IMG/VR virus record: IMGVR_UViG_3300048590_000105
Coordinates: 1 to 35,169 of that record
Strand: one strand, 5' to 3'
From: a virus
Length of the DNA: 35,169 nucleotides
In this document: in pieces, positions 4,801-33,288 of the stretch
Numbering within the stretch: position 1 is the stretch's first letter
How the letters are laid out: each line of letters starts with the position of its first letter
Notes under the pieces: generated by a model
Seen by the model: the letters and a program-made list of their open reading frames with translations, nothing else
Told to the model about the DNA's origin: nothing
The model's database searches: none
Program-made: the position numbers and the translations under genes

Positions 4801-6539
4801 TCAAACTCCTTCAAATACTGTTTCTGCCGATCCGTGTAGATTTTAAAGAAGTCGTCAAAAGCTTTTACAGCGGGAGCAAGCTCCGCTGGTATCTCCCCCG
4901 TATTCTGTGCGTCGAAGACCGCCGCTTTATAGTCTGCCCAATTTAGTTTACCGTCGGGTAGTTTTCCAAAGTAAGCTTTAAGCTGCGTTACAGCCGGGCT
5001 GTTAAAGTCATAACCCTTGTCGGTGCCGTGGATATATTTGTAATAGGCTTTGTCTAGAGTTAGGGCAAACTTGACAATGTTTGAGTCGTAGCCTTTAATA
5101 CGGCTGCTCACCGGAGCGTTACCGGCGGAACCTTCTACCTCGTCTAAGCCCGCTTGTCTAACACCTCCGAGGTCTAGCTTAGCAATAGCATGACGCAGCG
5201 ACGGAAACACACGCTGTGTGAGCATCCGATACGCTGGAGAAATATGTCCAATATTATCCATGAAGGTCTGACGTATCCGCCCCGGAGCCGCCTGCGCTCC
5301 GCGAGTATTTCGAGTGCGTGTAGGGGCGGCACCTGCTGCACGTGCGTCGGGCATTGTTGAGCCTGATATGGTTCCTTCACCGTGTGAAGCGGCCATACCA
5401 GTGTCATCCGCTTCTTCCAACATCTTATAAAGCTGATCGTCTAGCTTACCTTCGTCCAAAGCTTTTTTAAGTTCAGCTTCTTTAGTTAGTCCTGTAGCGC
5501 CAGCTTTCTCGTGCGAGTTTATTTTGGCCCGAGGAATACTTATTTCTGTCCCATCTTCCGCATGGAGTGTTATTGCATACTCGCCGTCGGTAAACCACTT
5601 ACCGCCACTTCCAGCTGGCACTTTAACAAAGCGAGCGAAAACGCCTTCGGCTACTGGTGCTTGGAGGAAACTTTTTCCATACTCCAGTTGAACATCAGCT
5701 GACTTTGCTGTAACTCTTTTAATCGCACCTACGGTAAGCGCGCGATCTTTTAGCGGAACGTATGCTCCATCAGGGTTAGCTTCTTCATACCTGGATCGAA
5801 CTTCGTCCGGGTCACGAATATTATCCTCCCGCACCTCACGCTTAACCTCAGCAACGGACGGGGCTTCCTCTCGAACAGTAATAGTTTTTCCAGTCGGAAC
5901 ATCTAGTTTGCCCGTAGGTATCTCAACTCGTTTTTGATTAAACGAAACGTCTGAAGCTAGTCGAGCGCGCCCCTCCTTACTCAGCTTCAGCCAAGCACCT
6001 CCCATCATACCCATCAGCAGGGTATCCATAGCAATACCCCCGTATAGTTCTCCTTCCGTCCGAGTAGCTTGATTAAGAAACAGTGCACCGTTTTGCACAC
6101 CAGCCCCCGCCGCCCCTAGCGCAAGTATCTCGGCAAAAGCCATGCCGCCACGCGCCTGCCCAGTAAACGGAATGAAGGAGGTTGGAGATAAAATACCGGC
6201 ACCAAGCGCGGCGACAGTTCCTCCCCAGCCCGCCGAAGCCAGAACTTCCTTATCCAAATATTCCTTCTTAAGTTTACCTACTTTAAAGTCAAACTCTTCT
6301 TTCGAGAGAGCGCCAGACAGCATGGGCATCCATTCGATCGGAAGCTGCTGTGCGTCAAACTCGGCCTGGAAATTAAACTCTGGATTCGGTTCAAAGGCTG
6401 GCCGGCTCACAAAGTCCAAGAGGTTAACCACGTCGTTCTCAAGGCCGAAGGCGGAAGACATGACTTGCTGAAAGGTCGGAACAAGTGCGGGAGCCTTCTC
6501 AGAATTAGGGAGGTAGATACTTTTAAACAGCGGGTCCAT
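1857..6539 (-). CDS. Very large internal virion protein (1560 aa)
   Basis: The size and the position between the transglycosylase-bearing protein and the tailspike match the gp16-type internal (ejection) protein of T7-like podoviruses, which is expelled into the cell envelope to help form the DNA channel; the assignment rests on position and architecture, not clear sequence identity. Near the N-terminus are two hydrophobic Ala/Gly-rich stretches (about 105-160, including TVAALGAGILSPTSFIPF). Residues about 640-960 are strongly charged Lys/Glu/Arg/Leu sequence typical of long coiled coil. Another hydrophobic stretch lies near 1415-1440 (IIFSLAFGAVSYYTYAV). Start and stop both overlap neighbouring genes (ATGA at 6539, TAATG at 1857), so translation is probably coupled. 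A 33-bp dyad of the phage-wide family lies inside the gene at 5366-5398. No enzymatic motif was recognised. Confidence 0.75.
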   Translation of the reverse strand: MDPLFKSIYLPNSEKAPALVPTFQQVMSSAFGLENDVVNLLDFVSRPAFEPNPEFNFQAEFDAQQLPIEWMPMLSGALSKEEFDFKVGKLKKEYLDKEVLASAGWGGTVAALGAGILSPTSFIPFTGQARGGMAFAEILALGAAGAGVQNGALFLNQATRTEGELYGGIAMDTLLMGMMGGAWLKLSKEGRARLASDVSFNQKRVEIPTGKLDVPTGKTITVREEAPSVAEVKREVREDNIRDPDEVRSRYEEANPDGAYVPLKDRALTVGAIKRVTAKSADVQLEYGKSFLQAPVAEGVFARFVKVPAGSGGKWFTDGEYAITLHAEDGTEISIPRAKINSHEKAGATGLTKEAELKKALDEGKLDDQLYKMLEEADDTGMAASHGEGTISGSTMPDARAAGAAPTRTRNTRGAQAAPGRIRQTFMDNIGHISPAYRMLTQRVFPSLRHAIAKLDLGGVRQAGLDEVEGSAGNAPVSSRIKGYDSNIVKFALTLDKAYYKYIHGTDKGYDFNSPAVTQLKAYFGKLPDGKLNWADYKAAVFDAQNTGEIPAELAPAVKAFDDFFKIYTDRQKQYLKEFEDRGLEVDPLFKELETDELGQEIVGYAHHIFSKTQLMDKMQEFINDFSQFNEASLTESFKKARVRYVKTQARLAHELETARLTPEEVTTRLTDVESDLEFLEELPEWQDFRESRLELTRQAREEDWSKEQLKEQMKELQENLSDDVKQLQVDRKNLMSEAKLLRNYGGDAGERIAKLQAEIDKADELLEGMFRTELPGIIKADLSIGRVQKAGDKALAAVTKQLESVIKTLQTRQAKMTKLLGSNRANTVSRQKVAEQVAAQKAKYDELLTRLSATKGKQVAYDEQLSALSLVREDVVKEAARLARKRAVRAEDLEDRLEAAEAKKLTPEERQAKATKLEQDLLDVEYKFESKWRERGERSGDPVNTAEPDFREHSRELAILLHQKLMNTEVELSPAYRALRQDARGAELLRTLKIPYGIKNKYLEKDVELGTRAYDRVMAPDLELWYAFDGSVNGKSVLGEMQEEATEHLHRISEAKFVKLPQGWTDKAASFVERAQKRLTDLGEADDIYLDAKNFSDEARPGFIPLTPELKNQLSQSVHAAVKASTRDFDVAIQRLRATRGIPDNPNSLMWRSGKFVKALNVTTMMGGVVASSISDVARPIYRHGVGATFNGWKPYLNRWAEGAKDFRIKAKELNRNIGLNLEPVLHGRAQAVFGLFDNVVGKTKVERGVTTLANKMGLIAMYDYWTAGMKSIAGNIFHATMAEYVPAVAKAMAEGSEFTGDLLQMRTYLRNLGLSDDTIRRLGFQMNREGGMEVFSNGGKLPNMEAWDDPVAYQAYQAAAIKEVDELIVTPGLERPNWTDENMGYSMLAQFKSFTFSATSRMALSGLQGNDPYLMQGIIFSLAFGAVSYYTYAVAAGGKTLEEANNLDPGKFLWEAVKRSGLLGVMSFGTDVVERVPAATGTQPTVFSKPSGLLGVFLGPTYGQADKLADAVMQINSDNPKQQQRNLKTLRQVFVPMQNHMLLRQLFDRAGAAMLGEN
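5366..5398. repeat. 33-bp dyad, copy A (inside a virion gene)
   Basis: Left arm ATATGGTTCCT (5366-5376), spacer tcaccgTGTGA (5377-5387), right arm AGCGGCCATAC (5388-5398). It has the same 11-11-11 layout and the same TGTGA at the right end of the spacer as the intergenic copies, in the same orientation on the + strand. It is the only full copy found inside a gene. Because coding constraint also acts here, keeping arms, spacing and TGTGA together is unlikely to be chance. Confidence 0.7.
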
Positions 6540-9487
6540 CAGTTTGCTCCGATCATTCTAAGAACAATTTTACCAGCCAGTTCGTCCGGAACCTTGAGTT
6601 CCTTTTCCACTAGCTTAGACAAAACGTCTGGGAGGTCCTCTTTGGAAACTCCTAGGGTAGCTTGGGAAAATTTCCGGACAAGAGCAGAGTCCGCGGTTAG
6701 CCGTTCTTCTAGAGTTTTAGCGAGTGCGCTAACGGTTTCATCCGAGTCTAGCCCGCCAATTACGGCTTGGTTGTTAATATGCCCCCGCTCAATCGCGGCC
6801 ATTATAGCAGCGTGCTTCTGCTGTTGAACCGCGTAAAGTTTGTCGCTGAGCGCTGCTTGCTCCGGGCTGATGGTTATTCCGGTTCGTAGGCCGGCTATCT
6901 GGTCTGTGTTTTTAGTAACTTCCAGCAACCGCTTAAGTTGATCCTCCTGTCCCGCGTAATAATTAACGCTCTTCAGACTATTTTCTACAGCAGCATTTTC
7001 ACGAATACTATCCGTCGCACTTTTCATGAGTTCGTCCCCGCCAAAGCGGCCTGGAAGAAGAATAGCTTCTCCAAGCGGACCTTTCCCGAGAACCTTATAT
7101 GTTGGCGGCTTGTTCGCTCTAATATCTTCTTCAGTTTGTGCGTCGGGAACCAGCACGGCGTTATTACGTTGTGCCCCCGCTTGCTGCGCGAAGTCAGCAA
7201 TAGCTGTATAGAGGTAGCCAAAGTCGGCGTCTTGCGCGGGGTAGTATTTCTCCGGCGGCCATTGCATAAGAACGGAGCGAGTTCCGCCGCCCTCACTTCC
7301 AAGTTCTTCGGGGGTCCAAGGAGTGATACTTAGTTGTGTTTGAGACACACCAAACCTATTTGACAGCGCGGCTTGCATATAGGCTTCGGCACCTTCGGTC
7401 GAGCCGGTTTTAAGAAAGCCGTCTCGATAAGCGGCGCCAGCGGCCCCCATAACCTGACCCTCAAGAGCGGGATTAACTGTAGAGTCAGGTGCCCAAGAAA
7501 GCCAGCCGTCCCACTGTTTCAGCACATCTTGGACAGTAGGATAAGTTTCTTTAAAGGACTTATACGCCTCAGTAGACAACTGGTTTTCAGTCATTCCAGT
7601 TCGATCTTTAGCCCCGGAGGCTTCAACATAGTCGTTGTAAGCGGCTTCGGGTGATGCCACTCGTTCCGCCATATTTTTATACAACTGCACCTTAGCGATA
7701 AGATCAGCATCGAAGTTGCTACGCTTTAAAATACTCGAGTCGCCCGCCATGGCAGAAGCGAGGAACGCCAGAGCTGTCCCCGCTGTTTTAGGATTACCAA
7801 TAGCTGCGGCGAAAGCGTCAGAGGAGCCTTCTGGAAACAGCCGTGCTTGCTGCGCTGCCCAACCCAATCTTTTATACGCTTCGGGATCGTTGTTTACAAT
7901 TCCGGCAAAGCCGTCTTCTCCAAACCACCGTCCGAACGCTTTAACTTGATTGGTGGAAAGCGGCGAGCCTTCGGAGAGGGAGCGTTGCACCGCGCCCACA
8001 GACGCCTCGCTTTCTCGAAAAACGGATTGACCGGAGTTATATCTAGCTTGTGCCTCGGCATCCCAATTCTTGTTCCCTTGCAGTGCCTCCAGCACCCCCG
8101 GCTCGTTTGAGTAACCGGCGTTGTATGCGTCGTCAAGAAACTGTTTTCTTTCTAAGGCCAGCTGGGAGCCCATAGCAACACGAACTTTCTCCGCCGCCGC
8201 CGAAGCCGCGTCAGAAAAACTCATCTTGCTTTCAAGACTTAACTCGGAAAATCTTGGGTCAGTCCACGGATTTGGCATATTCGCCGGACCTGTGCCCCCG
8301 CCAGCAAAACCCTTTTCTCCTGTCATCATTTCGATGAACTGAGCGTCGGGCATGTTACCGAGCCCCGCCCATTCTAGATCATTTGGGTTAGAACTGCGGG
8401 GTTTGCCCAATACGTCTCGGATAATCAAAAGTTTTCTAGGGTCGCCTGAGGCGAGGATTTCTCTATAAGTGGCGCCGGAGTAGTGACTATTAAATTGGGT
8501 CTCAGCCCAATTCGCCGCTACTCTATCCTGCCACTCAGGAGAAAAGTTAGGAACTTTGACTCCATATTTCTTTTCGTAGGCAGCTGAGGCAGCTCTCCAG
8601 GTGCCCAGGATAAATTGATAACGACCCGCAGCTGAGCTTTTACCCGGTGCCTTTCCGAACGCCGCAGGATGATCTTCATACCCCGTAAACTTAGTCCCTC
8701 CGTTCCATACGTCATAGCCGGGTGCCTCGTTTTTTGCGATGACATTTAGAACCGCTCGATCTCCTACAGGAAGACCAGCGGCTACAACGTCGCTACCATC
8801 ATTGCCCTCACGGACGACGCCGAAACCTTTCGCGCCTTGTTCGACAATAGTGCCGAACTCCAGCCCTTGAAGTGTGGCACGACCGCGCTCAACGAACTGT
8901 TGTTTATCCTCAGCAGGTAGCGCCGTTTTATTAACCATCTCTTCCCAAGTGGCTTGCGCGTCCTCAAGCGTAGCCCCGCCGCCTTTAACCGCAGAACCCA
9001 AAGCGTTTAGATTGGTGCTGAGGTTATTTGTATCCGCGGTGTCGAGAAGAGTTAGTTCGGCTGAGAACGCAGACGCTACACGAGTCGCTCGGTCTTGGGA
9101 AAGCTTCGCTTTAACTTCTTCTTGAAACCGAGGAGGAACTGTTTTAAGAAACTCTGCCTCATGCTTTGCAAGCGTCTCGTCGTAGTCTTTTGTCATGCCA
9201 GCGGGGCTAGCCGACCTTCCACGAGAAAACTCGGCAAACTCAACCGCTCGATCTTTTTGATACTGAAGCAGCTGGGTATCGAGCTCCAGTCCTTTGGACG
9301 CTTGCGCCCGACGGTCGTAGATATTCTCAATATCAGTTTTAGAATTGAGATAGCCCATTCCTGCTTGCGCAAGTCTGTCAATAGCGCCGCCCAGGCCTGA
9401 GTTAGCGCGAGCCAATATCTCGCCTGAGTTATCAGATACGAGTTGAGTTTTCAACCCGCCACTTGCTCTAACGTCACCGATTGCCAT
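6539..9487 (-). CDS. Internal virion protein with lambda R-like (GH104) transglycosylase domain
   Basis: A 982-residue virion protein whose residues about 243-395 resemble phage lambda endolysin R (glycoside hydrolase family 104). The lambda-like order is clear: AKNEAPGYDVWNGGTKFTGY, then DHPAAF, then SSAAGRYQF, then FSPEWQDRVA. Glu254 lies where the catalytic glutamate of lambda R (Glu19) is expected. A domain of this kind inside a virion protein would locally open peptidoglycan during DNA entry. The flanking parts, N-terminal about 240 and C-terminal about 590 residues, are Ala/Gln/Glu-rich and mostly helical-looking with no other recognised domain. By order it occupies the gp15 position of T7-like phages. 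It overlaps the next gene by ATGA and begins two bases after the gp14-like gene stops. A free endolysin gene was not found in the window, but this protein is too long to be one. Confidence 0.8.
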   Translation of the reverse strand: MAIGDVRASGGLKTQLVSDNSGEILARANSGLGGAIDRLAQAGMGYLNSKTDIENIYDRRAQASKGLELDTQLLQYQKDRAVEFAEFSRGRSASPAGMTKDYDETLAKHEAEFLKTVPPRFQEEVKAKLSQDRATRVASAFSAELTLLDTADTNNLSTNLNALGSAVKGGGATLEDAQATWEEMVNKTALPAEDKQQFVERGRATLQGLEFGTIVEQGAKGFGVVREGNDGSDVVAAGLPVGDRAVLNVIAKNEAPGYDVWNGGTKFTGYEDHPAAFGKAPGKSSAAGRYQFILGTWRAASAAYEKKYGVKVPNFSPEWQDRVAANWAETQFNSHYSGATYREILASGDPRKLLIIRDVLGKPRSSNPNDLEWAGLGNMPDAQFIEMMTGEKGFAGGGTGPANMPNPWTDPRFSELSLESKMSFSDAASAAAEKVRVAMGSQLALERKQFLDDAYNAGYSNEPGVLEALQGNKNWDAEAQARYNSGQSVFRESEASVGAVQRSLSEGSPLSTNQVKAFGRWFGEDGFAGIVNNDPEAYKRLGWAAQQARLFPEGSSDAFAAAIGNPKTAGTALAFLASAMAGDSSILKRSNFDADLIAKVQLYKNMAERVASPEAAYNDYVEASGAKDRTGMTENQLSTEAYKSFKETYPTVQDVLKQWDGWLSWAPDSTVNPALEGQVMGAAGAAYRDGFLKTGSTEGAEAYMQAALSNRFGVSQTQLSITPWTPEELGSEGGGTRSVLMQWPPEKYYPAQDADFGYLYTAIADFAQQAGAQRNNAVLVPDAQTEEDIRANKPPTYKVLGKGPLGEAILLPGRFGGDELMKSATDSIRENAAVENSLKSVNYYAGQEDQLKRLLEVTKNTDQIAGLRTGITISPEQAALSDKLYAVQQQKHAAIMAAIERGHINNQAVIGGLDSDETVSALAKTLEERLTADSALVRKFSQATLGVSKEDLPDVLSKLVEKELKVPDELAGKIVLRMIGAN

Positions 9488-9489
9488 TA

Positions 9490-14293: not shown

Positions 14294-15325
14294 TTATACA
14301 ACCTTGGCTTCGTCAACACGCATCTGGTCCATGCGACGAATAGGAATTTCTTGGAAGGAGTCGACTCGCTTGCCACCAACTTCCATAACCTGCAGCGTCG
14401 AGTTCTTCACGACGTTGGGAAGTTGCTGCCGAAGTTTCGTCTTGATCGAACGGTCCATGTAGAAAACCGGACGACAGTTTTCCAGCGAAGGCAGATACTC
14501 CAGCGCCTCGAACATGAGGTCGGCGAGGTTAGCGCCAGTGTATCCGGTTACGGTGGGATCGGCGCCGAGAAGGCTGCGGTCGATGTTGGCGATACGAACG
14601 ACGTAGCGATAGTCTTGAACCACAAGGCCCAAGTCCCAACGGTAGTGGGTGGAGTAGGCTTGGTAATAGCCATCCGCCGTCCCGTCTGCCGTCTTAGCAA
14701 CAGAGCGCACTTCACCTTGGTCCTCCACAATCAGGCCCGCTTTGGAACCTTTGGGGAAGATGCCGTAGACAGTGTTAGGCGCCCAGCCTACCAGCAGGAT
14801 CGAAGCATTGTCTGTGCTTGTCCCACCTGCGTTGATGATTTGCGAGCCGACGCCCGACGAGCCGGGTGTAGCGTTGAAGTGCGGCATGATGCCGGTAATC
14901 GCTTCAGGCGAGTTATCCTCGCTTTCGTAGAGAAGCGCCTGGGCAACTTTTTGATTGAAGCCCTCAACGTGCGCGGCGTCTTCTTGCAGCCGGAACCGCA
15001 CGGTGTTGCCGTTGAGGTCGGCCAGAGCCTTGTCAACTTCCGAGTAGTCCTCAAGCATCCCGGTGCTCGCGGTAACTTGCGCGCGGGAACTCTTGGTCGG
15101 CTGGACGCCTTGATACAGACGACGCCAGGTCGGCGTAGGCAGTCCGGTGCGGATGCTGAAGCGGTGACCAGTGAGAAGGTTGCCCTCAACCCAAGTCATA
15201 TCTTCGTAGAGTTGGTTAGTCTGTCGCAGCAGCTCCCCGAGATCCGTCACGGCATCATCAGGACCGAGAGCCTGAAGAAAGTCGTGGAGGGTCGGGTTAT
15301 ATGGAATATCAGGATAAACCGACAT
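14294..15325 (-). CDS. Major capsid protein, BPP-1 (Bbp17) type
   Basis: 343 residues, the usual length for this family, which has the HK97 fold but unusual topology in BPP-1. Recognisable parts: the N-terminal LHDFLQALGPDDAVTDLGEL, then WVEGNLLTGHRFSIRTGLP, ATPGSSGVGSQIINAGG, and the C-terminal QIRVDEAKVV-like end typical of capsid proteins (IRRMDQMRVDEAKVV). It is flanked by a scaffold gene before and a cement protein gene after, the standard order. The ribosome-binding site is AAGGAGTG, 7 bases before ATG. Confidence 0.88.
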   Translation of the reverse strand: MSVYPDIPYNPTLHDFLQALGPDDAVTDLGELLRQTNQLYEDMTWVEGNLLTGHRFSIRTGLPTPTWRRLYQGVQPTKSSRAQVTASTGMLEDYSEVDKALADLNGNTVRFRLQEDAAHVEGFNQKVAQALLYESEDNSPEAITGIMPHFNATPGSSGVGSQIINAGGTSTDNASILLVGWAPNTVYGIFPKGSKAGLIVEDQGEVRSVAKTADGTADGYYQAYSTHYRWDLGLVVQDYRYVVRIANIDRSLLGADPTVTGYTGANLADLMFEALEYLPSLENCRPVFYMDRSIKTKLRQQLPNVVKNSTLQVMEVGGKRVDSFQEIPIRRMDQMRVDEAKVV

Positions 15326-15373
15326 TCTTCACTCCTTGGTTTCTGGTTGATAGTGCCGTGCTAGCGAGTTCAT

Positions 15374-16099
15374 TTAGTCCCCTTTGTTTGCGGAGGTGTA
15401 AATGTTCGCGCCGAGTTGTCGAGAGGGTTTAGCGCCCCCTTGACCTTGAACCACCCCGCCCTCCATATAGGGTTTGGCGAGACGGTGCAATACTTGAAGG
15501 ATAGATGGATGGTTACCCGCGCCGGTAAGATCAAGGGCTTTGAAAAAGTCTTCGCCTGCTCCGATGGAAGTAAGGGCTTGAAGAACCTTGCCCGCCTCAG
15601 CGTCCGGGTTAGCCTTGAACTCGGGAAGTTCCTTAATCTGCTCGCGCCAGCCGTCGTTTGTTTTCGTCCACAGGTCCATGTTCGCCTGGGTCATTTGTTC
15701 GGAGACAGTTTTCAGGTTCTCCGAATACATGTCGATGAGTTTTTGACCACGTTCTTGCGAGGACAAATTTCTGTCGTCGAGAACTTCGGCAAAAGTTTTC
15801 CCGAGTTCCTCAGGAAGTTCCAACCCCTCGGGGAGGGTAAGAGCGGCGAGGTCGAAGGGAGCCGGGGGCTCGGCGGCCTCCGTTTTTTCGGCGTCCTCCG
15901 CTGGAACCTCCTCGGCCTTACCGGCCTCCGTTAGAAAAGTGGTAGCGGGGGGAGAGGGATCGGCAGCAGCGGCTTCTCCCTCTCCCTTATCTTCACCAGC
16001 AGCGACCCCCGAATTATCGCCGCCGGCTCCACTACCTTCTCCCTCCGCTTCGCGGAAGAAAGAAGCCCAAAAATTTTCAACAGGGTTAAACTTATTCAT
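15374..16099 (-). CDS. Capsid scaffolding protein
   Basis: 241 residues. The N-terminal 85 residues are low-complexity, rich in Glu, Ala, Gly and Pro; the middle is helical and charged (LSSQERGQKLIDMYSENLK, KELPEFKANPDAEAGKVLQA). This composition, and the position directly before the major capsid gene, are typical of scaffold proteins that guide procapsid assembly and then leave. The gene start overlaps the end of the previous gene by 8 bases. Confidence 0.8.
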   Translation of the reverse strand: MNKFNPVENFWASFFREAEGEGSGAGGDNSGVAAGEDKGEGEAAAADPSPPATTFLTEAGKAEEVPAEDAEKTEAAEPPAPFDLAALTLPEGLELPEELGKTFAEVLDDRNLSSQERGQKLIDMYSENLKTVSEQMTQANMDLWTKTNDGWREQIKELPEFKANPDAEAGKVLQALTSIGAGEDFFKALDLTGAGNHPSILQVLHRLAKPYMEGGVVQGQGGAKPSRQLGANIYTSANKGD

Positions 16100-18307: not shown

Positions 18308-19893
18308 CTTACTGCCTGTGTTGGGTTAAAGGTTTGTTTAGTTACTTGGGCGTAGGGATTTGTTTCAGTGTAGCTGTCGCCTTTTGCCGCAAGCCCGCTT
18401 TCATGGCTAGGTAGCGGAGCGAAGGCCTCGTCGAGGTATGGATAAGCGAAGGTGATAGCGATTGCGTCAGCGTCGTCCGGGGAGATGCCGAGTCGACGGC
18501 GGAGATCCTTCTTACTTTCTAGCTGCAGCTTAACGTCACCTTGGTAGGTGTAAGTTGGTGCGGTAAGTTGCGCGGACAAACCTTTACTTTCGTTTCTCGC
18601 ATCGTCCGGAGGAAGGCAGCCGCCTTTTTTAAGCCAGTCGCGCAGCCGCCCATACATCTCCGCCCGCTTATTCATGTATTTTTCTGACGAGTCGTTATCC
18701 GGGGAACTTGAAAAGTCTACTCCATAGACGTTGATACTCATTAGTTCGAGCTGGTCGAACACGCCGCCGCCTACACCGCCAGTGTCTACTACCAACGCGG
18801 CGAGGTTCGCTCGCAGATACCACTCAAACGCCCAGCGAGCGACGGCCACCGTGCTTTGCCCTTGTATAGATTGCCAAGGCCGCGTCGAGGCGTTACGGCC
18901 CTGACGAAAAGCTAGAACGGAACTATCTGGACCAAAGCGAGCAACGTCAAGGCCGCCAATGACCGGAAGGGCTTCTTGCCCCTCTGGGGCACGGGCCTGT
19001 GCTTCGAGAACATCCTCCAGCGCGATGAATGAAACAGCGTCAACGCGAGGGAAGACCCCGCGAACGCGAACACGAACGAAGTCATGGTCCTCGCCATAGT
19101 CGTCTACCCAGGCTTGAAGCTGGGTTTTGTTGCTGATTTTAACTGTGCGCGAGTCGATCGCGCGAGTGTGCCAGCGATGCTCGAACCTACCGCCGGGAAA
19201 ACACTCACGAAACCGTCCGGAGTTTTTCGTTGGGTTTCCGAACGCACACCAGATGATCTGGGTGTTCGCGTCGGTCATGGCGCCTTCGGCCACTTCCCAG
19301 ATAATATCGTCAATCTCGGAGGCTTCGTCGAAGATGAGTAGAATACGCTTGCCGTGGTTGTGCAAGCCGGCGAACGCGGCGGAGTTCTTCGCGCTCCACG
19401 GAACCATGTCCACACGCCAGGTCTTCTCGTGCAGCGGGTCGATCGAGAAGCGGGAGGTGGCCGTCATCTTGAACAGGTCGCGAGTGATAGATAGGCGATG
19501 CCACTTAGCCAGCTCTGCCCACGTTGTTACCTTTAGCTGGGTTTCAGTGTTGGCGGTGACGCGCCCACGGCAATCTACCTCGGTAGACATTGCCCAATCT
19601 ATGATCCAGGCGACCAGGGCGGATTTGCCGATACCGTGGCCAGAGGTAGTTGCTTCGAGGATAGGGGACGCTACATACTCCTCTCCAGAAGACAGCGCCT
19701 TTTGAATAGCTTCGTCTACCGTAACCACGCCGTCTCGAATACTGCAAAGCACCTCGGCTTGCCAGATGTCAGGCCCGTCGTATTTTGCAAGTTCCCCTTT
19801 CCCCCATTCATACGCTCCAAGGACAAAAGCGTAGGGATCGTTGCGAACCGAGGCGAGCCACTCGATCAGGGCATAATGATCGTCGTCCAGCAT
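18304..19893 (-). CDS. terL: Terminase large subunit
   Basis: 529 residues, the ATPase-nuclease motor for genome packaging. Walker A is at about 85-91 (GHGIGKS), Walker B at about 184-190 (ILLIFDE, with Asp189-Glu190), followed by a coupling motif near 213-220 (IIWCAFGNPT). The C-terminal nuclease shows GGLDVARFGPDSS (Asp316) and LVVDTGGVGGG (Asp370), the expected acidic metal ligands. The start overlaps the small-subunit stop as TAATG. The replacement of the usual first R/K of the motif by a His-Gly (TSGHGIGKS) is common in this terminase group. Confidence 0.92.
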   Translation of the reverse strand: MLDDDHYALIEWLASVRNDPYAFVLGAYEWGKGELAKYDGPDIWQAEVLCSIRDGVVTVDEAIQKALSSGEEYVASPILEATTSGHGIGKSALVAWIIDWAMSTEVDCRGRVTANTETQLKVTTWAELAKWHRLSITRDLFKMTATSRFSIDPLHEKTWRVDMVPWSAKNSAAFAGLHNHGKRILLIFDEASEIDDIIWEVAEGAMTDANTQIIWCAFGNPTKNSGRFRECFPGGRFEHRWHTRAIDSRTVKISNKTQLQAWVDDYGEDHDFVRVRVRGVFPRVDAVSFIALEDVLEAQARAPEGQEALPVIGGLDVARFGPDSSVLAFRQGRNASTRPWQSIQGQSTVAVARWAFEWYLRANLAALVVDTGGVGGGVFDQLELMSINVYGVDFSSSPDNDSSEKYMNKRAEMYGRLRDWLKKGGCLPPDDARNESKGLSAQLTAPTYTYQGDVKLQLESKKDLRRRLGISPDDADAIAITFAYPYLDEAFAPLPSHESGLAAKGDSYTETNPYAQVTKQTFNPTQAVR

Positions 19894-20450
19894 TATTCTT
19901 CTTCCGCTGGAGTAACGTCGATTATGGTGGCGTTAATGCGGCGTGTGGCCTCGGCAAGCCTTTCTGCCAGCCCTACCTTTACATTCACCTCGGTTTTTTG
20001 AGAGGGTCCGTGGCCGGTTCGATCGGCGCCCACCTGAACAATTTGCAGCACCAACGCATCGCTCATATCTTCCGGCTTGTCCTCCATCCGACTTTGCAAG
20101 ATGGAAGCCGCGTCGAGGGCCAGCTCCGACAGCTTCGCTTGGAAGTCTACAAATTCTTCGTTGACGATGGACTGGTAATGAGCGACAAGTTCCCGGAAGC
20201 TAGGGTCCGCGAGCAGCACGCTCATTCTACTTTGCGAGTAGCGTTGCAGGATCGCGGCTTCCCCCGGCTTTCGCCCTTCCGCTATCAGCCGCGCAAGCGC
20301 GTGATGCCGCTCGCGAAACTCTTTAATCTGCGGCGCTTGCACCCCCTTTTCCTCAAGAAGCGACTCCACGTCGCCCATCTCAAGTTCCCGCTCCACCTCC
20401 GCTATCAGCGGCTTTTTCGCCCGTCCAGTCGTTCTTAATCCAAGCGTCAT
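19893..20450 (-). CDS. terS: Terminase small subunit (putative)
   Basis: 185 residues directly before the large terminase. The N-terminal part (FRERHHALARLIAEGRKPGE, then AAILQRYSQSRMSVLLADPS) looks like the helix-turn-helix with which terminase small subunits bind DNA; helices with a VDFQAKLSELALDAASIL segment follow, fitting the oligomerisation domain. The call rests on this pattern plus position. It is the first gene of the leftward operon; a plausible promoter is at 20478-20506. Confidence 0.7.
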   Translation of the reverse strand: MTLGLRTTGRAKKPLIAEVERELEMGDVESLLEEKGVQAPQIKEFRERHHALARLIAEGRKPGEAAILQRYSQSRMSVLLADPSFRELVAHYQSIVNEEFVDFQAKLSELALDAASILQSRMEDKPEDMSDALVLQIVQVGADRTGHGPSQKTEVNVKVGLAERLAEATRRINATIIDVTPAEEE

Positions 20451-20521: not shown

Positions 20522-20554
20522 GTATGGCTGGTGCATAGTGTGAAGGAGCCATAC
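20522..20554. repeat. 33-bp dyad, copy B (divergent control region)
   Basis: Left arm GTATGGCTGGT (20522-20532), spacer gcatagTGTGA (20533-20543), right arm AGGAGCCATAC (20544-20554). The arms match at 9 of 11 positions as inverted repeats. It sits between the divergent transcription units, just upstream of the leftward -35 box. Confidence 0.85.
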
Positions 20555-20799: not shown

Positions 20800-21474
20800 A
20801 TGGAAATGTTTAATCTTGAAGTCCCTGTCGCGTCCTTGCGTGTTGAAAGCCGGGGCGTGTTTGTTGACGTGCCGGTCGTGGACATTCCGCATGATGTGTT
20901 GCGGCAGGTCGTGTGGCACGGCATCAAGCAAAAGGTGGCGGATGCCGCTAGCAACGCCACGATGCTGATCTGGCAAGAAGTGAAAGGAAAGGATGCGCCC
21001 AAGCCGAGTCGAGATCAACTGAAGGATTTTGCCGAGTCGCATGAAAAGGCAATCCAAGATCAGACGCTGGCGCTGATGCAAAAGGCAGCGGATGCTCTGC
21101 TGGCGGGACAATGGCAGATCAGAACGCCCGGTGACGGAACGTCAACCAAGTGGACCGACGAGCAATCCTTGGCGTTGGATATTGCGAAACAAGCGTTGCA
21201 AGCGGTCTTTGTCGCGGCACTGGCCAAGCGGAAACCCGGCACCAAGCCGACGGCGGCGAACTTTGTCGCGCTGGATCCGAAGATCGCGGCATATTTCAAA
21301 GCCAATGAAAAGCGCCCGACCTGGGATGATGCCGCGATCATGGGGTGGATCGGTAAGCAGAAAGAAGCCGGGACTCGCGATGTGATGGAAGAAGCGCAAG
21401 CGGAATTGGCGCGCCGCGAAAGCGCCATGCCGGACCTGTCGGATGATCTTGACGAGATGTTGAACGACATCTGA
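20800..21474 (+). CDS. Early protein of unknown function with own promoter and terminator
   Basis: 224 residues, acidic C-terminus (SDDLDEMLNDI). The N-terminal 20 residues look beta-rich (ASLRVESRGVFVDVPVVDIP), followed by helices (VLRQVVWHGIKQKVADAASN) and a Lys/Ala-rich C-terminal half (MEEAQAELARRESAMPDL). No known domain was recognised. It is preceded by a strong promoter and AAAGGAGTCC leader and followed at once by a strong terminator, so it is a separate, probably abundant early transcript. Its layout (beta-rich start, helical core, basic helix ending in an acidic tail) is reminiscent of the protein at 27851-28393, which also has its own promoter and terminator; distant homology is possible but unproved. 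Confidence 0.8.
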   Translation: MEMFNLEVPVASLRVESRGVFVDVPVVDIPHDVLRQVVWHGIKQKVADAASNATMLIWQEVKGKDAPKPSRDQLKDFAESHEKAIQDQTLALMQKAADALLAGQWQIRTPGDGTSTKWTDEQSLALDIAKQALQAVFVAALAKRKPGTKPTAANFVALDPKIAAYFKANEKRPTWDDAAIMGWIGKQKEAGTRDVMEEAQAELARRESAMPDLSDDLDEMLNDI

Positions 21475-21529: not shown

Positions 21530-21620
21530 GTCTGGTGGTGCTGTGATATGGGCGCATAGGCGGGCGCGTGACGCCCTAATCGCGTTTAGGCGGTGTTTAT
21601 ACACGCCGACCCGTTCCGCC

Positions 21621-21661
21621 CGCCACGCGCCCGCCACGCGCCCGCCACGCGCCCGCCACGC
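21621..21661. repeat. 11-bp tandem repeat, about 3.7 units
   Basis: CGCCACGCGCC is repeated at 21621, 21632 and 21643, with a partial unit (CGCCACG) at 21654, all perfect. It lies in a C-rich stretch of about 160 bases with few G runs. Iterons of replication origins are longer, so function is open; slippage is another explanation. Confidence 0.7.
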
Positions 21662-21836
21662 CACACCACATCCCGCCCCGCCCCCGCCGCGCGCCGCCCC
21701 GCCCGTCCAAACTCATACCCCACATATCTAGGCCACCTATCTCCCGCCCCGCTCATTCCACCCAGCGCTGGCGCGCATGTCTGAAAAGCCCTCGTTTTGC
21801 CAGTTTTGGCGCGAATTTGAAACGTTGCATAGTTTC

Positions 21837-21983: not shown

Positions 21984-22217
21984 GAAACCCCGCAACGTTT
22001 CCAAAAACCCCTAAAACCACCAATAGTCCTGCATTGCAGGGCTACTTGCTAGGGCGGGCAGCTTTGGACAGCGGCGTAGGACCGCCAGTTAGCACTACCG
22101 GCTATCGCCGCCTTGGACGTGGCGGAAAGTCCTGGCGCGATGTGGCCATACCAACTCACAAGCGCCGTTGACAACGCGCAACGCGCATGGTAAACCGGGA
22201 TTGCGGCGCGGATTGCG

Positions 22218-24509: not shown

Positions 24510-24920
24510 ATGGCCAGCTACTCCAAATCAGTCAAGTCCTACGTGGACGTGCATCAAGCTTTCGAGGCCGCCGGGGAAACCGGCGGTATTCTTCTCTCCT
24601 TCGACACGCCTCAGCGCGCAACAGTGTGGGCGCAGCGAGCTAACGCCTATCGCGTTTTGCTTCGCAAGCAGAACGAGGCGGCGGGGCGGGACCACGCCTG
24701 CGAGTTCGATCACCTCATGGTTCGGCGCCCGAAGGAAACGGCGCAGGTTCTTATCGAGCCGCGAGGTTTCAACTTCGTAGCAACTACTCTCGAGGGCGCC
24801 CCGGTTACGTTTAGCAAGAAAACCCTATCCGGTTCTGTCCCTACTCCCTACGAAGTAACTTCGGGGGAGGAGGATCTGGAAAGCTTCTTCGAGGGCCTCG
24901 AGAAGGACAAGAAGAAATGA
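24510..24920 (+). CDS. Hypothetical protein
   Basis: 136 residues, compact alpha/beta-like in the first 90 (HQAFEAAGETGGILLSFDTP, QRATVWAQRANAYRVLLRKQ), with an acidic/basic C-terminal tail (EEDLESFFEGLEKDKKK). The middle segment places Arg and Gln at regular intervals in a helix. No ribosome-binding site is obvious before ATG at 24510, three bases after the previous stop. Function unknown. Confidence 0.6.
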   Translation: MASYSKSVKSYVDVHQAFEAAGETGGILLSFDTPQRATVWAQRANAYRVLLRKQNEAAGRDHACEFDHLMVRRPKETAQVLIEPRGFNFVATTLEGAPVTFSKKTLSGSVPTPYEVTSGEEDLESFFEGLEKDKKK

Positions 24921-27701: not shown

Positions 27702-27734
27702 ATATGGCTGCTTCACACTGTGAATAAACCATAC
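27702..27734. repeat. 33-bp dyad, copy E (directly after a stop codon)
   Basis: ATATGGCTGCT (27702-27712), spacer tcacacTGTGA, ATAAACCATAC (27724-27734). It starts on the base after the TAG of the exonuclease gene and ends 17 bases before the -35 box of the next promoter. The right arm is the most diverged, with non-compensating mismatches. Confidence 0.8.
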
Positions 27735-27751
27735 AGCACTCACAATCCCGC

Positions 27752-27780
27752 TTGACTCTTTCCGCGCCACGTTCTATATT
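27752..27780 (+). promoter_or_regulatory. Strong sigma70-like promoter
   Basis: -35 TTGACT (27752-27757), 17-bp spacer, -10 TATATT (27775-27780). Start is predicted near 27787, giving a 64-base leader before the gene at 27851, whose ribosome-binding site is AGGAG at 27840. A perfect 9-bp dyad (27762-27795) brackets the -10 box. The dyad E lies 17 bases upstream. Confidence 0.75.
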
Positions 27781-27795
27781 CCATGTGTGGCGCGG
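27762..27795. promoter_or_regulatory. 9-bp dyad bracketing the -10 box, possible operator
   Basis: CCGCGCCAC (27762-27770) and GTGGCGCGG (27787-27795) are perfect inverted repeats 16 bases apart, with the -10 hexamer in between and the downstream arm at the predicted start site. This is the geometry of a repressor operator, different in sequence from the 33-bp dyads; alternatively it gives a 5' hairpin in the mRNA. Found once in the window. Confidence 0.5.
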
Positions 27796-27850
27796 GACAA
27801 CCCCGGCCTTTTATCCCCGCGCAATCCCGCGCAACCCACAGGAGCCTAAA

Positions 27851-28393
27851 ATGACCACCAAGGAAATTACCATCGCCGGCAGCACGTTCTCCGTCTCGCA
27901 ACCCTACGTCGAAGGCCATACCATCACTGAGGCCGAGGCCAAAGCCCTGAACCAGGTTCGCGCGGAAAATATCCGCAACAACATGGCCTCCAAGGTCAAA
28001 GCGGCGACTGAGGGCACCCAGAAAGAGGGCGAACCCGATGCCTCCACCATCGCCCAGGCTGTGGCCGATTACGACGCCAACTACGTCTTCACCCTCGCCT
28101 CTGTCGGCGGTGGACGGAAGCCTTCCGATCCGGTCGAGGTCGAGGCCCTGCGCATCGCTCGCGGCACCTTCTCGGATTGGGCGGCGTCGAAGAAACTCAC
28201 CGTCAAGGCGATCAAGGAGAAGATCGGAGACGAGGCTTACGAAGCCAAGCTGGCCGAGATTGCCGAGCGCGACGACGTTGTGAAGGAAGCTCGTCGTCGG
28301 GTGAAAGCCCGTCAGGCGACCGCCGAGAGCGCCATGGGTGACTTGGACCTGGGCGAACTCGACGTGGCCTCGCCGGAGGAAGCGGCTGCGTAA
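27851..28393 (+). CDS. Conserved phage protein with own promoter and terminator
   Basis: 180 residues from ATG at 27851, with AGGAG upstream; the frame is open for 33 codons more upstream but through the promoter. The N-terminus is beta-rich (EITIAGSTFSVSQPYVEGHT), then a helix with the ALNQVRAENIRNNMASKV pattern, a Gly-rich segment (TLASVGGGRKPSDPVE), and a Lys/Arg/Glu-rich C-terminal helix ending in an acidic tail (MGDLDLGELDVASPEEAA). I recognise the pattern as a conserved phage family but not a function. Strong promoter, dedicated terminator and acidic tail suggest an abundant single-strand-binding or structural early protein, an inference only. Compare 20800-21474. Confidence 0.75.
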   Translation: MTTKEITIAGSTFSVSQPYVEGHTITEAEAKALNQVRAENIRNNMASKVKAATEGTQKEGEPDASTIAQAVADYDANYVFTLASVGGGRKPSDPVEVEALRIARGTFSDWAASKKLTVKAIKEKIGDEAYEAKLAEIAERDDVVKEARRRVKARQATAESAMGDLDLGELDVASPEEAAA

Positions 28394-28403: not shown

Positions 28404-28440
28404 CTGGAGGGGGACACAATTCCCCTCCAGTCTTTCGTTC
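28404..28440 (+). terminator. Terminator after the 27851 gene
   Basis: CTGGAGGGG (28404-28412) pairs perfectly with CCCCTCCAG (28422-28430), 9-base loop, followed by tctttcgttc. The T content of the tail is moderate. It begins 10 bases after the stop codon. Confidence 0.7.
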
Positions 28441-28503
28441 TGCAAGCGGACTCCTCCTCCCAGAGTTGACGCGCGGCTTGGACTCCCCGCTTGCCGCTTG
28501 CAG
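28440..28503. repeat. 10-bp perfect inverted repeat in the intergenic region
   Basis: CTGCAAGCGG (28440-28449) and CCGCTTGCAG (28494-28503) are exact inverted repeats, separated by 44 bases that include CTTGGACTCCCCGCTTG. The inner CCGCTTGC is repeated at 28488-28495, making alternative pairings possible. It may be an mRNA leader fold or binding pair upstream of the 28525 gene. Confidence 0.55.
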
Positions 28504-28524
28504 AACCAAGGACTGGAACCAGAT

Positions 28525-28743
28525 ATGAGCAGCCCCGATCTTACCTTCCTCCTTTTCAAGGCTAACGAGGCCGAGATCGGTTTATCCGTCGTAACTAACA
28601 ACCCTCAGTTACTCCGAAACCAACTCTACGCCGAACGCAAGCGCCAAGGCTTGACGAACCTAACCTTTATCCAGCCTCCGGTAGACAGCGACACACGCCT
28701 CTGGATAGTAAAGAAGGATAAGAAAGCCTATGGCACGGACTAA
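28525..28743 (+). CDS. Small hypothetical protein
   Basis: 72 residues from ATG at 28525 (GGA 10 bases upstream); a TTG at 28498 would place the start inside the inverted repeat. Mixed alpha/beta composition (LTFLLFKANEAEIGLSVVTN) with a basic C-terminus (WIVKKDKKAYGTD). No family recognised. It overlaps the next gene by 14 bases. Confidence 0.6.
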   Translation: MSSPDLTFLLFKANEAEIGLSVVTNNPQLLRNQLYAERKRQGLTNLTFIQPPVDSDTRLWIVKKDKKAYGTD

Positions 28744-28921
28744 AACCGAAGAACTCAAAAAGCACACGCTTAACCTTCGAGATGGGGACATGGAACGACT
28801 AGCGGAGCTCTTCCCCCGCTTCCACCCCTCCGTGATGGTTCGGCGTATCGTCAGCAAATTCGTAGACCATTCTCACAACGTCGAAGAACAGAAGATAGCT
28901 TCCGACGACCTCGACCTTTAA
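28730..28921 (+). CDS. Ribbon-helix-helix-like DNA-binding protein
   Basis: 63 residues with the layout of an Arc/MetJ-type ribbon-helix-helix: a short strand (HTLNLRDGD), helix 1 (MERLAELFPRFH), a turn, and helix 2 (SVMVRRIVSKFVDHS). Ribbon-helix-helix proteins bind palindromic operators as dimers of dimers, which makes it the best candidate in this window for the 33-bp dyads, but nothing ties them together directly. It overlaps the previous gene by 14 bases and uses AGGATAAGAAAG as its upstream region. Confidence 0.6.
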   Translation: MARTKTEELKKHTLNLRDGDMERLAELFPRFHPSVMVRRIVSKFVDHSHNVEEQKIASDDLDL

Positions 28922-28934
28922 GGAGTCCATGTCA

Positions 28935-29171
28935 ATGTCAGACGAAACCCCGATCGCGGAGCTTATGGCTCGCGACCCGCTTCTACTCTCTGCCCAGGAC
29001 CTCGACGCGATCATTGCCGATCTTCGCAAGTCCCGGCTCCGCTTTGTCCAAGCGGACGACAAGAAAATCGGAACTCCCGCTGCTCGGAAATCAGCGGCGC
29101 AGAAAGACCGTGAGGCGAGAGCCAAGGTTCTCAACGTCACCTCGCTCGACGATCTGTTCAAGGATTTGTGA
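28935..29171 (+). CDS. Small hypothetical protein
   Basis: 78 residues. Two ATG codons follow GGAGTCC, at 28929 and 28935; the second is 9 bases from GGAG, the spacing seen at the other GGAGTCC genes, while the first is only 3, so 28935 is chosen. Sequence features: acidic helical start (ETPIAELMARDPLLLSAQDL), Lys/Arg-rich middle (GTPAARKSAAQKDREARAKV), and an LDDLFKDL end. No family named; possibly DNA-associated because of the basic middle. Confidence 0.6.
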   Translation: MSDETPIAELMARDPLLLSAQDLDAIIADLRKSRLRFVQADDKKIGTPAARKSAAQKDREARAKVLNVTSLDDLFKDL

Positions 29172-29174
29172 GTC

Positions 29175-30301: not shown

Positions 30302-30314
30302 GTGGAGTAAAATA

Positions 30315-30542
30315 ATGCCCAAAGGTAAAGACCCCCTTAACTACTCCGACCCCGGGTGGCACAAGCGACAGGAGCGCTGGCGACACTGTTCTTTTCTCGG
30401 TCACTGCGCCATGGGCCGACAGCACATGCGAGTTATATCTGTAGCCGAAACGACAACCTCGCGCAGCAAGCACTTAGCAACTCACATCAGCGGCCTTTTA
30501 CAGGAGCTCGCAGAAAGTTTGAAGGAACGAGTTGATGACTAA
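30315..30542 (+). CDS. Small basic hypothetical protein
   Basis: 75 residues from ATG at 30315, with GGAG 7-8 bases upstream; the frame is open earlier only through the nuclease gene. Rich in His, Arg, Cys and Trp in the first half (GWHKRQERWRHCSFLGHCAM), so perhaps metal- or nucleic-acid-binding; the C-terminal half is a helix. It sits between the nuclease and the Sak4-like gene and overlaps the latter by 8 bases. Confidence 0.55.
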   Translation: MPKGKDPLNYSDPGWHKRQERWRHCSFLGHCAMGRQHMRVISVAETTTSRSKHLATHISGLLQELAESLKERVDD

Positions 30543-31326
30543 AGCATCCTCCCTCCACGCAAGCGGTAAGCCCGTTCGCGCTCTCTACATCGGTGATAGC
30601 GGCAGCGGCAAGACCGGCTCCCTTATCTCCCTACTCCAGGCCGGTTACAATATCCGTATGCTAGACCTGGATAACAACGCCGACTCCCTCATCCAGCTTT
30701 GCAAGCACCTCGACCCGAAACTTCTTGACCAGCTGGACATTATCTCCGTCCGGGATAAATTCCGCGCTTCCCAGATGACAGGTCTTGAAGTCGCCGGCCA
30801 GCCAAAGGCTTGGGTAGACGCCCTTAAATACCTTAACAAATGGGACGACGGCACCAGCCTTTCAGAATGGGACGCGAAGACAATCTTCGTCCTCGACACC
30901 CTTACTTCCGCTGGACGCGCCGCTTTCCATTGGGCCAAGGGCATGAACCCAACATCAAAAGACCCGAGACAATGGTATGCTGCTGGTCAAGACAGCCTGA
31001 AAACCTTGCTTGAACTCCTCACCTCACCCGAGTTTACCTGCCACATTCTCGTCCTTTCTCACATCGACCTGGTCGAGCGCGACGACGGTTCTATGAAAGG
31101 CTACGCCTCCTCCTTGGGCAAAGCTCTTGGCCCCCAAATCGCCAAAGTATTTCCCACCCTCATTATGGCAGAGACTAAAGGCAGCGGGACTAACGTGAAA
31201 CGCACCATCACCACGCTCCCTACCATGATGATAGACCTGAAAAACCCTGTCCCATTCGCCATTGATGCTCGCTATCCTCTTGAAACTGGATTAGCCAGCA
31301 TCTTTACTGCGCTAACCGCAGTTTAG
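30535..31326 (+). CDS. Sak4-like RecA-type ATPase (single-strand annealing)
   Basis: 263 residues. Walker A is GDSGSGKT (20-27) and Walker B-like IFVLDTLTSAG lies near 123-133, with the conserved HILVLSHID strand further on. This matches the phage AAA_24/Sak4 group, which anneals single strands in recombination and works with a single-strand-binding protein. ATG at 30535 is chosen; a TTG just before it (30532) would add one residue. The next gene is a probable ssDNA-binding partner, and the PD-(D/E)XK nuclease lies just upstream, so the three may form a recombination module. Confidence 0.8.
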   Translation: MTKASSLHASGKPVRALYIGDSGSGKTGSLISLLQAGYNIRMLDLDNNADSLIQLCKHLDPKLLDQLDIISVRDKFRASQMTGLEVAGQPKAWVDALKYLNKWDDGTSLSEWDAKTIFVLDTLTSAGRAAFHWAKGMNPTSKDPRQWYAAGQDSLKTLLELLTSPEFTCHILVLSHIDLVERDDGSMKGYASSLGKALGPQIAKVFPTLIMAETKGSGTNVKRTITTLPTMMIDLKNPVPFAIDARYPLETGLASIFTALTAV

Positions 31327-31380
31327 GTTCAGTAGCACCTACCTACAAGCTACCTCAACCTGATCATGGAGATCAACAAC

Positions 31381-31860
31381 ATGGCCGCTAACTTTATGGA
31401 CGCCCTCAACACCAAAGCGTCTGAAATCGAGAAACCGAGTCTGATGCCGGAAGGCACTTACGTCTGGGCGGTGAACAAGCCGCACAAAGAGTCCACTTCC
31501 AAAGACGGCAAGTGGTTCACCATTGAAGTGCCCTGTGTTCCCAAGTTTCCCTACGAGCCTGCGGAAGATGTGGACATGGAGGCCGTAGCTGAATACGGCG
31601 ACTTGAAGGCGGGGACTAACTCCATCCGCTTCATGCTGGACACAACCGCCGAGGGCAAGGTGGACCAAGAGAAATTCCTCTACAACATCAAGAGGTTTCT
31701 TCTCGACACCCTTCGCGTGGAGGGAGACGACGACGCCACGATCAAGGAGCTTCTGGGCAAGATGATCGGGGCGGAGTTTGTCGCCCAAGCCTCGCACCGC
31801 TACGTCCCCGACCGGGACGAGACTTACTGCGACGTGAAGAATTGGGCTCCGATGGAGTAA
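31381..31860 (+). CDS. Probable ssDNA-binding protein (DUF669-like), partner of Sak4
   Basis: 159 residues. The start chosen is ATG at 31381, because GGAG lies 9 bases upstream; an ATG at 31366 has no ribosome-binding site. The pattern LMPEGTYVWAVNKPHKESTS (beta hairpin with a tight turn), the middle LKAGTNSIRFMLDTT, and the ending YCDVKNWAPME with an invariant-looking N-W tail resembles phage DUF669-type proteins placed beside Sak4 or Erf recombinases and thought to bind single-stranded DNA with an OB fold. Very acidic, Lys-bearing composition fits. The hairpin terminator at 31870 follows. Confidence 0.6.
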   Translation: MAANFMDALNTKASEIEKPSLMPEGTYVWAVNKPHKESTSKDGKWFTIEVPCVPKFPYEPAEDVDMEAVAEYGDLKAGTNSIRFMLDTTAEGKVDQEKFLYNIKRFLLDTLRVEGDDDATIKELLGKMIGAEFVAQASHRYVPDRDETYCDVKNWAPME

Positions 31861-31869
31861 GTTAATCCA

Positions 31870-31900
31870 GGGCGAGGGGAATAATCTCCTCGCCCACACC
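31870..31900 (+). terminator. Hairpin after the ssDNA-binding gene
   Basis: GGGCGAGGGGA (31870-31880) pairs with TCTCCTCGCCC (31885-31895) at 10 of 11 positions with an ATAA loop; ACACCTTT follows. The tail is T-poor, so a partial terminator or mRNA stabiliser is more likely than a full stop, since the next gene begins 27 bases further on. Confidence 0.55.
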
Positions 31901-31921
31901 TTTCACGCTCGAGGCTCACTC

Positions 31922-33256
31922 ATGCTCACTGGTTCCTTTTACTCCTTCCCTATCTCCTCCATTGTAATAACGCCCGAGCGTCAGCGGAAGGAACTCACCG
32001 GCATTACGGAGCTGGCGGAGTCTATCCGCAGTCTCGGCCTTATTCACCCCATTGTAATAACTCCCGACGGTGTTCTTGTCGCAGGCGAACGTCGCCTCCG
32101 AGCGCACGAAGAACTTGGTTTCACGCACATAATGGTGCAGTTCACCACCGACCTCCCTCGCGAAGAACTCGAGGCTATCGAGCTCGAGGAAAACGTAAAG
32201 CGGAAAGCCCTGCATTGGAGAGAAGAAGTCGCCGCTGTTACTCGCTTGCATCAGCTTAAAACCAGCCAAGACGCCGACTGGTCTCAGGCGGACACAGCTA
32301 AACTTCTTTCTGTCTCCCCCAATGTAATAACCAACCATCTCCTTCTTTCCAGTTTTGTGAAAGCGGAGGAGCCGCTGGTCCTTCAAGCCGATACCTACTC
32401 CACCGCTCTTAACATCTGCCTTCGTAAGAAGCAACGGGCAGAGGCTGAGACTGATAGCTACGTAGACGCCGCCTTCGATGAAATCTTTTCCGCCCCGGTT
32501 TCTATCTCCCCGGACGCGAGAAAGGTGTCTAAGGAAACTGAACTACCGTTGCTTCCCTCGACACAACCCAAGCTTCCCTACCTCAACGTCAACTTTCTAG
32601 AGTGGGCGGCCACTCCTTACTCTGGACTTCGGTTCAACTTTATTCATTGTGACTTCCCTTACGGGATCAACTATGACAAGCACAATGGCGGGGCCACTGG
32701 CCTCTTAGGAAGCTACGCCGACACGCCTGAGCTCTACCAAAATTGTCTCGACGCCCTTAAAACTTGTATGTCAGACCGCGTAGCTGAGTCCGCTCACATC
32801 ATGTTCTGGCTATCCGCCCGCGTAGAAATCGTCTCCGCCACCGCAACAGCCCTTACAGAGATGGGGTGGAAAATAAATCCTGTTCCCTTGATATGGCACC
32901 GCAATGACAACGCAGGAATTATGCCTGATCCGCAACGCGGTCCAAGGCAAGTCTATGAAGTATGCCTGTTCGGCGCTCGCGGCGACCGTAAGGTAGTCCA
33001 ACCTGTTTCCAACCTCTACGCTCACCCAAAGACTAAAGAAATCCATCCGAGTGAGAAACCCCGGCCAATGCTCCAGCATTTCTTCCGTATGTTTGTGGAT
33101 GAGTCAACTATCATGCTCGACCCGACTATGGGAAGCGGGAACTCAATCCTTGCCGCCGAGGAAGCTTCGGCTAAACAAGTCCTCGGCTTGGAAATCGACC
33201 CGGAGATTTATTCCAGCGCGGTGATGTATCGGAATAAAGTGAAGCGTCGAGACTGA
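31922..33256 (+). CDS. ParB-domain / DNA adenine methyltransferase fusion
   Basis: 444 residues. Residues 1-110 form a ParB/Spo0J-type N-terminal domain (LIHPIVITPDGVLVAGERRL with the GERR motif); a helix-turn-helix-like segment follows at about 120-145 (ADTAKLLSVSPNVITNHLLL). The C-terminal half is a class beta methyltransferase: motif IV HCDFPYG at about 243-248 and motif I DPTMGSGNS at about 400-408, in that order. Asp-Phe-Pro-Tyr instead of Asp-Pro-Pro-Tyr is a rare catalytic variant. It probably methylates phage DNA (N6-adenine or N4-cytosine), perhaps against restriction or for timing, with target choice by the ParB part. No partner endonuclease was seen. The stop codon is immediately followed by dyad F. 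Confidence 0.85.
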   Translation: MLTGSFYSFPISSIVITPERQRKELTGITELAESIRSLGLIHPIVITPDGVLVAGERRLRAHEELGFTHIMVQFTTDLPREELEAIELEENVKRKALHWREEVAAVTRLHQLKTSQDADWSQADTAKLLSVSPNVITNHLLLSSFVKAEEPLVLQADTYSTALNICLRKKQRAEAETDSYVDAAFDEIFSAPVSISPDARKVSKETELPLLPSTQPKLPYLNVNFLEWAATPYSGLRFNFIHCDFPYGINYDKHNGGATGLLGSYADTPELYQNCLDALKTCMSDRVAESAHIMFWLSARVEIVSATATALTEMGWKINPVPLIWHRNDNAGIMPDPQRGPRQVYEVCLFGARGDRKVVQPVSNLYAHPKTKEIHPSEKPRPMLQHFFRMFVDESTIMLDPTMGSGNSILAAEEASAKQVLGLEIDPEIYSSAVMYRNKVKRRD

Positions 33257-33288
33257 TATGGCTGCTGTATAATGTGAAGTGACCATAC
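33256..33288. repeat. 33-bp dyad, copy F (at a stop codon)
   Basis: ATATGGCTGCT (33256-33266), spacer gtataaTGTGA, AGTGACCATAC (33278-33288). It begins on the last base of the methyltransferase stop. The spacer contains TATAAT (33268-33273), which could be a -10 box, but no good -35 is seen. A GGAGTCC leader and GTG start follow at 33295-33305. Confidence 0.85.

Follow-up and report, generated by a model that had tools for sequence, protein, structure and literature searches.

Symmetric 33-bp DNA sites dispersed at conserved places in a podovirus clade: putative operators of a phage-encoded regulator

Genome context

We analysed a virus record from IMG/VR (the window, 35,169 bp) whose PHROG matches point to a podovirus gene set. 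Its genes run on the - strand in the left arm, where the matches include terminase, a head-tail adaptor, the major head protein, tail proteins and an internal virion protein, and on the + strand in the right arm, with a helicase, exonucleases, a Sak4-like ATPase and a ParB-methyltransferase. It belongs to a little-known clade of podoviruses with genomes of about 45 kb. Relatives, collected through three separate queries (terminase, helicase and the exonuclease p304), are about 42-50 kb at full length and carry a DNA polymerase A and a primase/helicase-like protein past the point where the window ends; the closest isolate found was Caulobacter phage Kuura, at 28-35% protein identity and devoid of RTATGG sites. 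The relatives are abundant among viral contigs (536), and a scan of 84,980 bacterial and archaeal genomes yielded only 3 MAG contigs. Tyrosine integrase (PF00589) and serine recombinase (PF00239) were absent from the 13 genomes searched, some of which are fragmentary records, as was an HTH_3 repressor (PF01381), and the ParA-type ATPase PF13614 was absent from 11 genomes, all with positive controls. A T7-like single-subunit RNA polymerase (PF00940) gave no match in 13 genomes, and its control gave none either. The clade most likely consists of virulent phages relying on the host RNA polymerase, and because we found no integrase, recombinase or HTH_3 repressor and the clade is nearly absent from bacterial genomes, a role in lysogeny is unlikely for the DNA sites described below.

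Six dyads in the window

The window holds six copies of one 33-bp dyad, whose coordinates and sequences we verified as they had originally been reported. Site A (5366-5398) falls within the gene for the internal virion protein (1857-6539, - strand; phrog_16310, phrog_342), and the other five are intergenic as claimed. Site B (20522-20554) is upstream of the gene for the terminase small subunit, TerS (19893-20450, - strand, start at 20450), which is the first gene behind it. Sites C1 (21837-21869) and C2 (21951-21983) mark the start of the early arm, with C1 placed before a T tract of more than 20 nt that separates it from C2. Site D (27702-27734) comes right after the stop codon of an exonuclease gene and upstream of the conserved gene p213 (27851-28393, + strand, its start placed by homology), while site E (33256-33288) overlaps the last base of the stop codon of a gene for a ParB_N and DNA methyltransferase protein (31922-33256, + strand) and precedes a gene whose weak matches suggest a UDG-like and 3'-5' exonuclease protein (33373-34389, + strand).

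All 12 half-sites begin with RTATGG, and TGTGA stands at the right side of the spacer in 5 of the 6 copies, both as had been described. When the 33-bp consensus was scanned over both strands with at most 3 mismatches it gave 11 matches, all within the six known places, compared with a mean of 0.00 in 100 dinucleotide-preserving shuffles. We examined whether the family could be a product of chance, be missing from related phages or represent a repeat of the host genome, and none of these was upheld.

Two observations concern the C region. The sequence GAAACGTTGC at 21819-21828 and its reverse complement at 21992-22001 flank the C1/C2 pair at equal 8-bp distances, and it is possible that the region so bounded is an origin or a divergent control region. 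Just before it, at 21617-21660, three or more 11-bp repeats (CGCCCGCCACG) stand head to tail.

Anatomy of the site

Alignment of 93 distinct sites from related phages shows that the outer arm is nearly invariant, and that two stretches, positions 1-6 and 10-15, are strongly symmetric, with only weak symmetry at 7-9. The inner positions 10-15 are symmetric yet variable, with an observed pairing of 0.52-0.86 against the 0.25-0.63 expected for independent halves, whereas at positions 7-9 pairing was no higher than expected. The original division of the site into 11-11-11 thus captures a 33-bp dyad but cuts across the true unit, which pairs the RTATGG of the outer arm with an inner half-site at around positions 11-16; on the right, this inner half-site consists of TGTGA and the following A. 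Within each half the centre of the arm and the inner half-site are about 10 bp, or one helical turn, apart. The shared + orientation noted for the six copies carries little meaning, as the site is nearly symmetric and the inner half-sites are not polarised with respect to transcription (17 versus 16); an apparent polarity of 28 versus 11, obtained with positions 7-16, was gone when positions 11-16 were used.

Could the dyads instead act as RNA hairpins, that is as terminators, processing or antitermination elements? Long stems are conceivable in some relatives, but among mismatches in sense-oriented dyads those that would leave a G-U pair (G-T, 69) were as common as A-C (75), symmetry is weak at positions 7-9, and one of the sites is inside a coding region. 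We therefore rejected the hairpin on the wobble test and regard it as very improbable. The parity of G-T and A-C mismatches means that the dyad acts as double-stranded DNA, which agrees with the earlier preference for a DNA site, and its sequence pattern points to a symmetric protein as the likely reader.

Conservation and placement in relatives

We counted RTATGG followed by CCATAY at all spacings from 0 to 60. The 21-bp spacing occurred 44 times in a first set of relatives versus at most 4 times for any other spacing, 46 times versus at most 5 in a second, independently fetched set, and 101 times versus at most 8 when pooled over 87 related records. Among whole records 17 of 33 had 1-5 sites, the reversed-pattern control giving none, and the number per genome is usually 2-6. 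The original proposal that the dyad family is kept at equivalent places in relatives is borne out by six recurring places, A to F. A sites are embedded in the gene for the internal virion protein; B sites precede TerS, mostly by 70-100 bp and by 46-101 bp over most related phages; C sites occupy the start of the early arm and adjoin long A/T tracts in several phages; D sites fall in the gap between the helicase gene and p213 and, for most of the genomes that have one, 66-135 bp ahead of where p213 starts; E sites stand between the ParB-methyltransferase and UDG-like genes; and F sites, in some genomes, between the portal and the protease/capsid genes. D and E sites often start at the stop codon of the preceding gene, and a candidate conserved flanking motif, TRG ahead of these sites, turned out to be mostly that stop codon. 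At site A, found in the same place in 11 related genomes, the arms keep the same reading frame in 11 of 11 genomes examined and the amino acids that the interior specifies are hypervariable, which indicates that the constraint acts on the DNA and not on the protein.

In deeper relatives the arms are altered as well. The genome G032 (788 and 39721; L141, L142) has the same early module with another dyad, GGGGGCC...GGCCCCC, just upstream of p213 and in a second copy near terS. In four phages (L179, L181, L191 and L213) everted arms, CCATAY-N17-RTATGG, replace the inverted dyad at the D place upstream of p213.

The promoter behind site D

A sigma-70-like promoter, TTGACT-N17-TATATT, is predicted at 27752-27780 on the + strand, with its -35 box 17 bp after site D. 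Across 29 D sites the promoter signal has a median score of 9.4 versus 3.9 for shuffled sequence (p = 4e-17), and the -35 box is 16-23 bp past the site in 18 of the 29. Signals behind B and F are weaker, and none was seen at A and E sites. We also considered a promoter whose -10 box would fall within the dyad, and rejected it when the -35 scores upstream of TATGG equalled the control.

In this respect D resembles a Class I activator site, its centre lying near -70 with the -35 box mostly 16-23 bp downstream. Unlike such sites, the dyads also occur inside genes and at gene junctions that have no promoter.

A candidate binder

Between p81 and p304 lies a gene (28730-28921, + strand) for a ribbon-helix-helix-like protein of 63 aa, with homologues in 85 of 128 records. 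Its pattern, a strand KHTLNLR followed by two helices, is that of ribbon-helix-helix (RHH) proteins, and an AF2 model shows extended residues and then helices at 20-27 and 33-56 with pLDDT about 92. The only structural match of the model was the RHH omega repressor (1irq; Z 4.3, 47 residues, rmsd 2.9), and a Foldseek search matched no RHH protein. Sequence profiles lend the assignment little support: Pfam RHH_9 matched 3 of 64 family members with a best E of 0.0055, and NikR was reached only at E 0.2. The Arc family (PF03869) had no match at E<=1 in the window, G001, G007 and G008; the control phage UFJF_PfDIW6 was matched at 2.7e-15. RTATGG arms occur upstream of p213 in 38 of 52 records that have [HK]T at strand positions 2-3, versus 1 of 19 others, an association that is only suggestive, as it follows the phage tree (with L177 and G030 as exceptions) and so is not an independent test. 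The 28730-28921 product, which had been named beforehand for binding assays, is on these sequence and model data our best candidate for the protein that binds the dyads.

The comparison with known RHH operators (Arc, MetJ and omega of pSM19035) gives a mixed picture. Here too a small RHH-like protein is encoded nearby and, within each half, subsites are about one helical turn apart; unlike those operators, the dyads are spread over the genome rather than confined to one locus, do not form contiguous repeats, and have a candidate binder that lacks family membership at the sequence level. RHH ParB proteins have a part in partition as well as occupying arrays that overlap promoters, and omega needs contiguous arrays of four or more repeats (PMC9499535). 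Through an RHH-type protein such as the omega ParB of pSM19035, or through another protein, the dyads might thus serve a different DNA transaction: initiation of replication, condensation or looping, partition-like clustering or packaging. The A and E sites without promoters, the C sites beside A/T tracts and the double role of RHH ParB arrays all fit such a function. We nevertheless consider it rather unlikely, given that the dyads are isolated and dispersed and do not form arrays of the kind omega needs, that no PF13614 ATPase was found in the 11 genomes, and that the D site keeps a near-fixed distance from a promoter.

A genome-specific interior

The interior half-site is common to all sites of one genome and differs between genomes. 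At positions 13-15 agreement was 0.73 within genomes versus 0.35 between them, a difference reached in 0 of 300 permutations; non-symmetric positions showed far less within-genome agreement, weak at 9, 17 and 25. An exact-pattern scan of viral contigs for the interior of the window itself gave no match because the interior is phage-specific. The clearest case comes from G028 and G033, which share about 89-97% nucleotide identity. At their sites A, D and F the arms keep 34 of 36 bases and the 100-bp flanks are 91-99% identical, while the interiors keep only 37 of 63.

The RHH-like proteins of these two phages are identical although their interiors differ, so this protein alone cannot set the interior code, and a second factor or copying between sites must account for it. 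Copying may also happen, since G028 sites A and D are identical across 33 bp, the unusual left arm included, in unrelated flanks. In its full form this explanation holds that a phage enzyme cuts or nicks the sites and that repair from another copy (gene conversion) keeps them alike with no specificity factor needed. Apart from the G028 pair, however, the only identical pair was in L013, where the flanks are duplicated too; no enzyme was identified, and within-genome likeness is concentrated at symmetric positions, as selection for recognition predicts. As the general cause of within-genome likeness gene conversion therefore seems improbable to us.

Candidates for a protein that reads the inner site were sought by mutual information in 13 families and by distance correlation in 17, and none stood out. 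The DUF1937-like p115, encoded by the gene behind UDG, is only 61% identical between G028 (28628-28957) and G033 (15282-15620), where its neighbours are 94-99% identical, and it is possible that it was replaced recently; as an interior reader it showed no clade-wide correlation. The protein p136 (24510-24920) gave a good model with no fold match. At present we can only tentatively suggest that the sites follow a two-part operator code, new to phages, in which the conserved RHH-like protein would read the outer arms and a rapidly switching second factor the inner palindrome, with the result that every site of a phage changes in step with the others and close relatives no longer share regulation.

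A dispersed operator system

The original prediction had likened the dyads to the stoperators of mycobacteriophage L5. L5 sites are asymmetric, 13 bp long, present in more than 20 copies per genome and oriented with transcription, and in the temperate phages that carry sites of this type the protein bound to them is a monomeric HTH repressor (PMC9283540, PMC6550527); in cluster A phages the site versions are genome-specific (PMC6550527). What holds of the analogy is the dispersed layout. As in cluster A (L5 gp71, TipsytheTRex), sites are found across both arms, at promoters and in short gene gaps, and each phage has its own site version. The symmetry of the site, the repressor family, the integrase and the orientation do not fit: instead of polar sites we observe symmetric 33-bp dyads, usually few per genome and without polarity, with a two-tier pattern of fixed ends, in genomes where neither integrase nor HTH_3 repressor was found. 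The dyads are not members of the L5 stoperator family, because the features that define it were tested here and found to be lacking. Silencing of a prophage in the stoperator manner, with a repressor at dispersed sites blocking both initiation and elongation in lysogeny, would explain the placement in short intergenic gaps beside stop codons and the genome-specific versions, but has little chance of being correct in view of the absence of lysogeny genes (serine recombinase among them) from the 13 genomes searched, the rarity of the clade in bacterial genomes and the symmetric, unpolarised site.

On the sequence evidence the best reading is that the dyads behave most like a dispersed operator system, being real, conserved and regulatory in layout, and the conserved places in relatives support the earlier view of them as putative protein-binding DNA sites at regulatory positions. 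The fixed places are where transcription units border on each other, and at the helicase/p213 junction a predicted promoter follows closely. We lean, somewhat beyond an even chance, towards operators through which a DNA-binding regulator, encoded by the phage, coordinates genome-wide transcription in a virulent podovirus. The reader of RTATGG would be a symmetric protein, the likeliest being the RHH-like 28730-28921 product; when bound at D, about 70 bp ahead of the start site, it would tune initiation by the host RNA polymerase, and at the promoterless A and E sites it might punctuate or slow elongation or loop distant sites together. The inner half-site would be a code specific to each phage and determined by a trans-acting factor common to the sites of one genome.

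In the open-licence papers searched we found no earlier description of these dyads. With about 90 comparable sites, they would constitute the first mapped cis-regulatory system for an uncultured, widespread podovirus clade, and offer a natural experiment in which a regulator code is rewritten at 4-6 dispersed sites at once, phages about 95% identical differing in the interior of all their sites with flanks and arms unchanged. Should both the binder and the specificity factor be identified, a heteroimmunity-like separation of co-infecting virulent phages becomes testable.

Further features of the window

The products of p213 (window 27752-28393) and p224 (20800-21474) belong to one remote profile family, and each gene adjoins a dyad. 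Between p213 and p81 there is an inverted repeat of 24 nt (28426-28449 / 28494-28517), 92% complementary and 44 nt apart. Finally, positions 31366-31860 encode a protein of 164 aa, possibly an SSB, that is conserved in 73 records; a larger ORF on the - strand, 31339-31899, is the antisense shadow of this gene.
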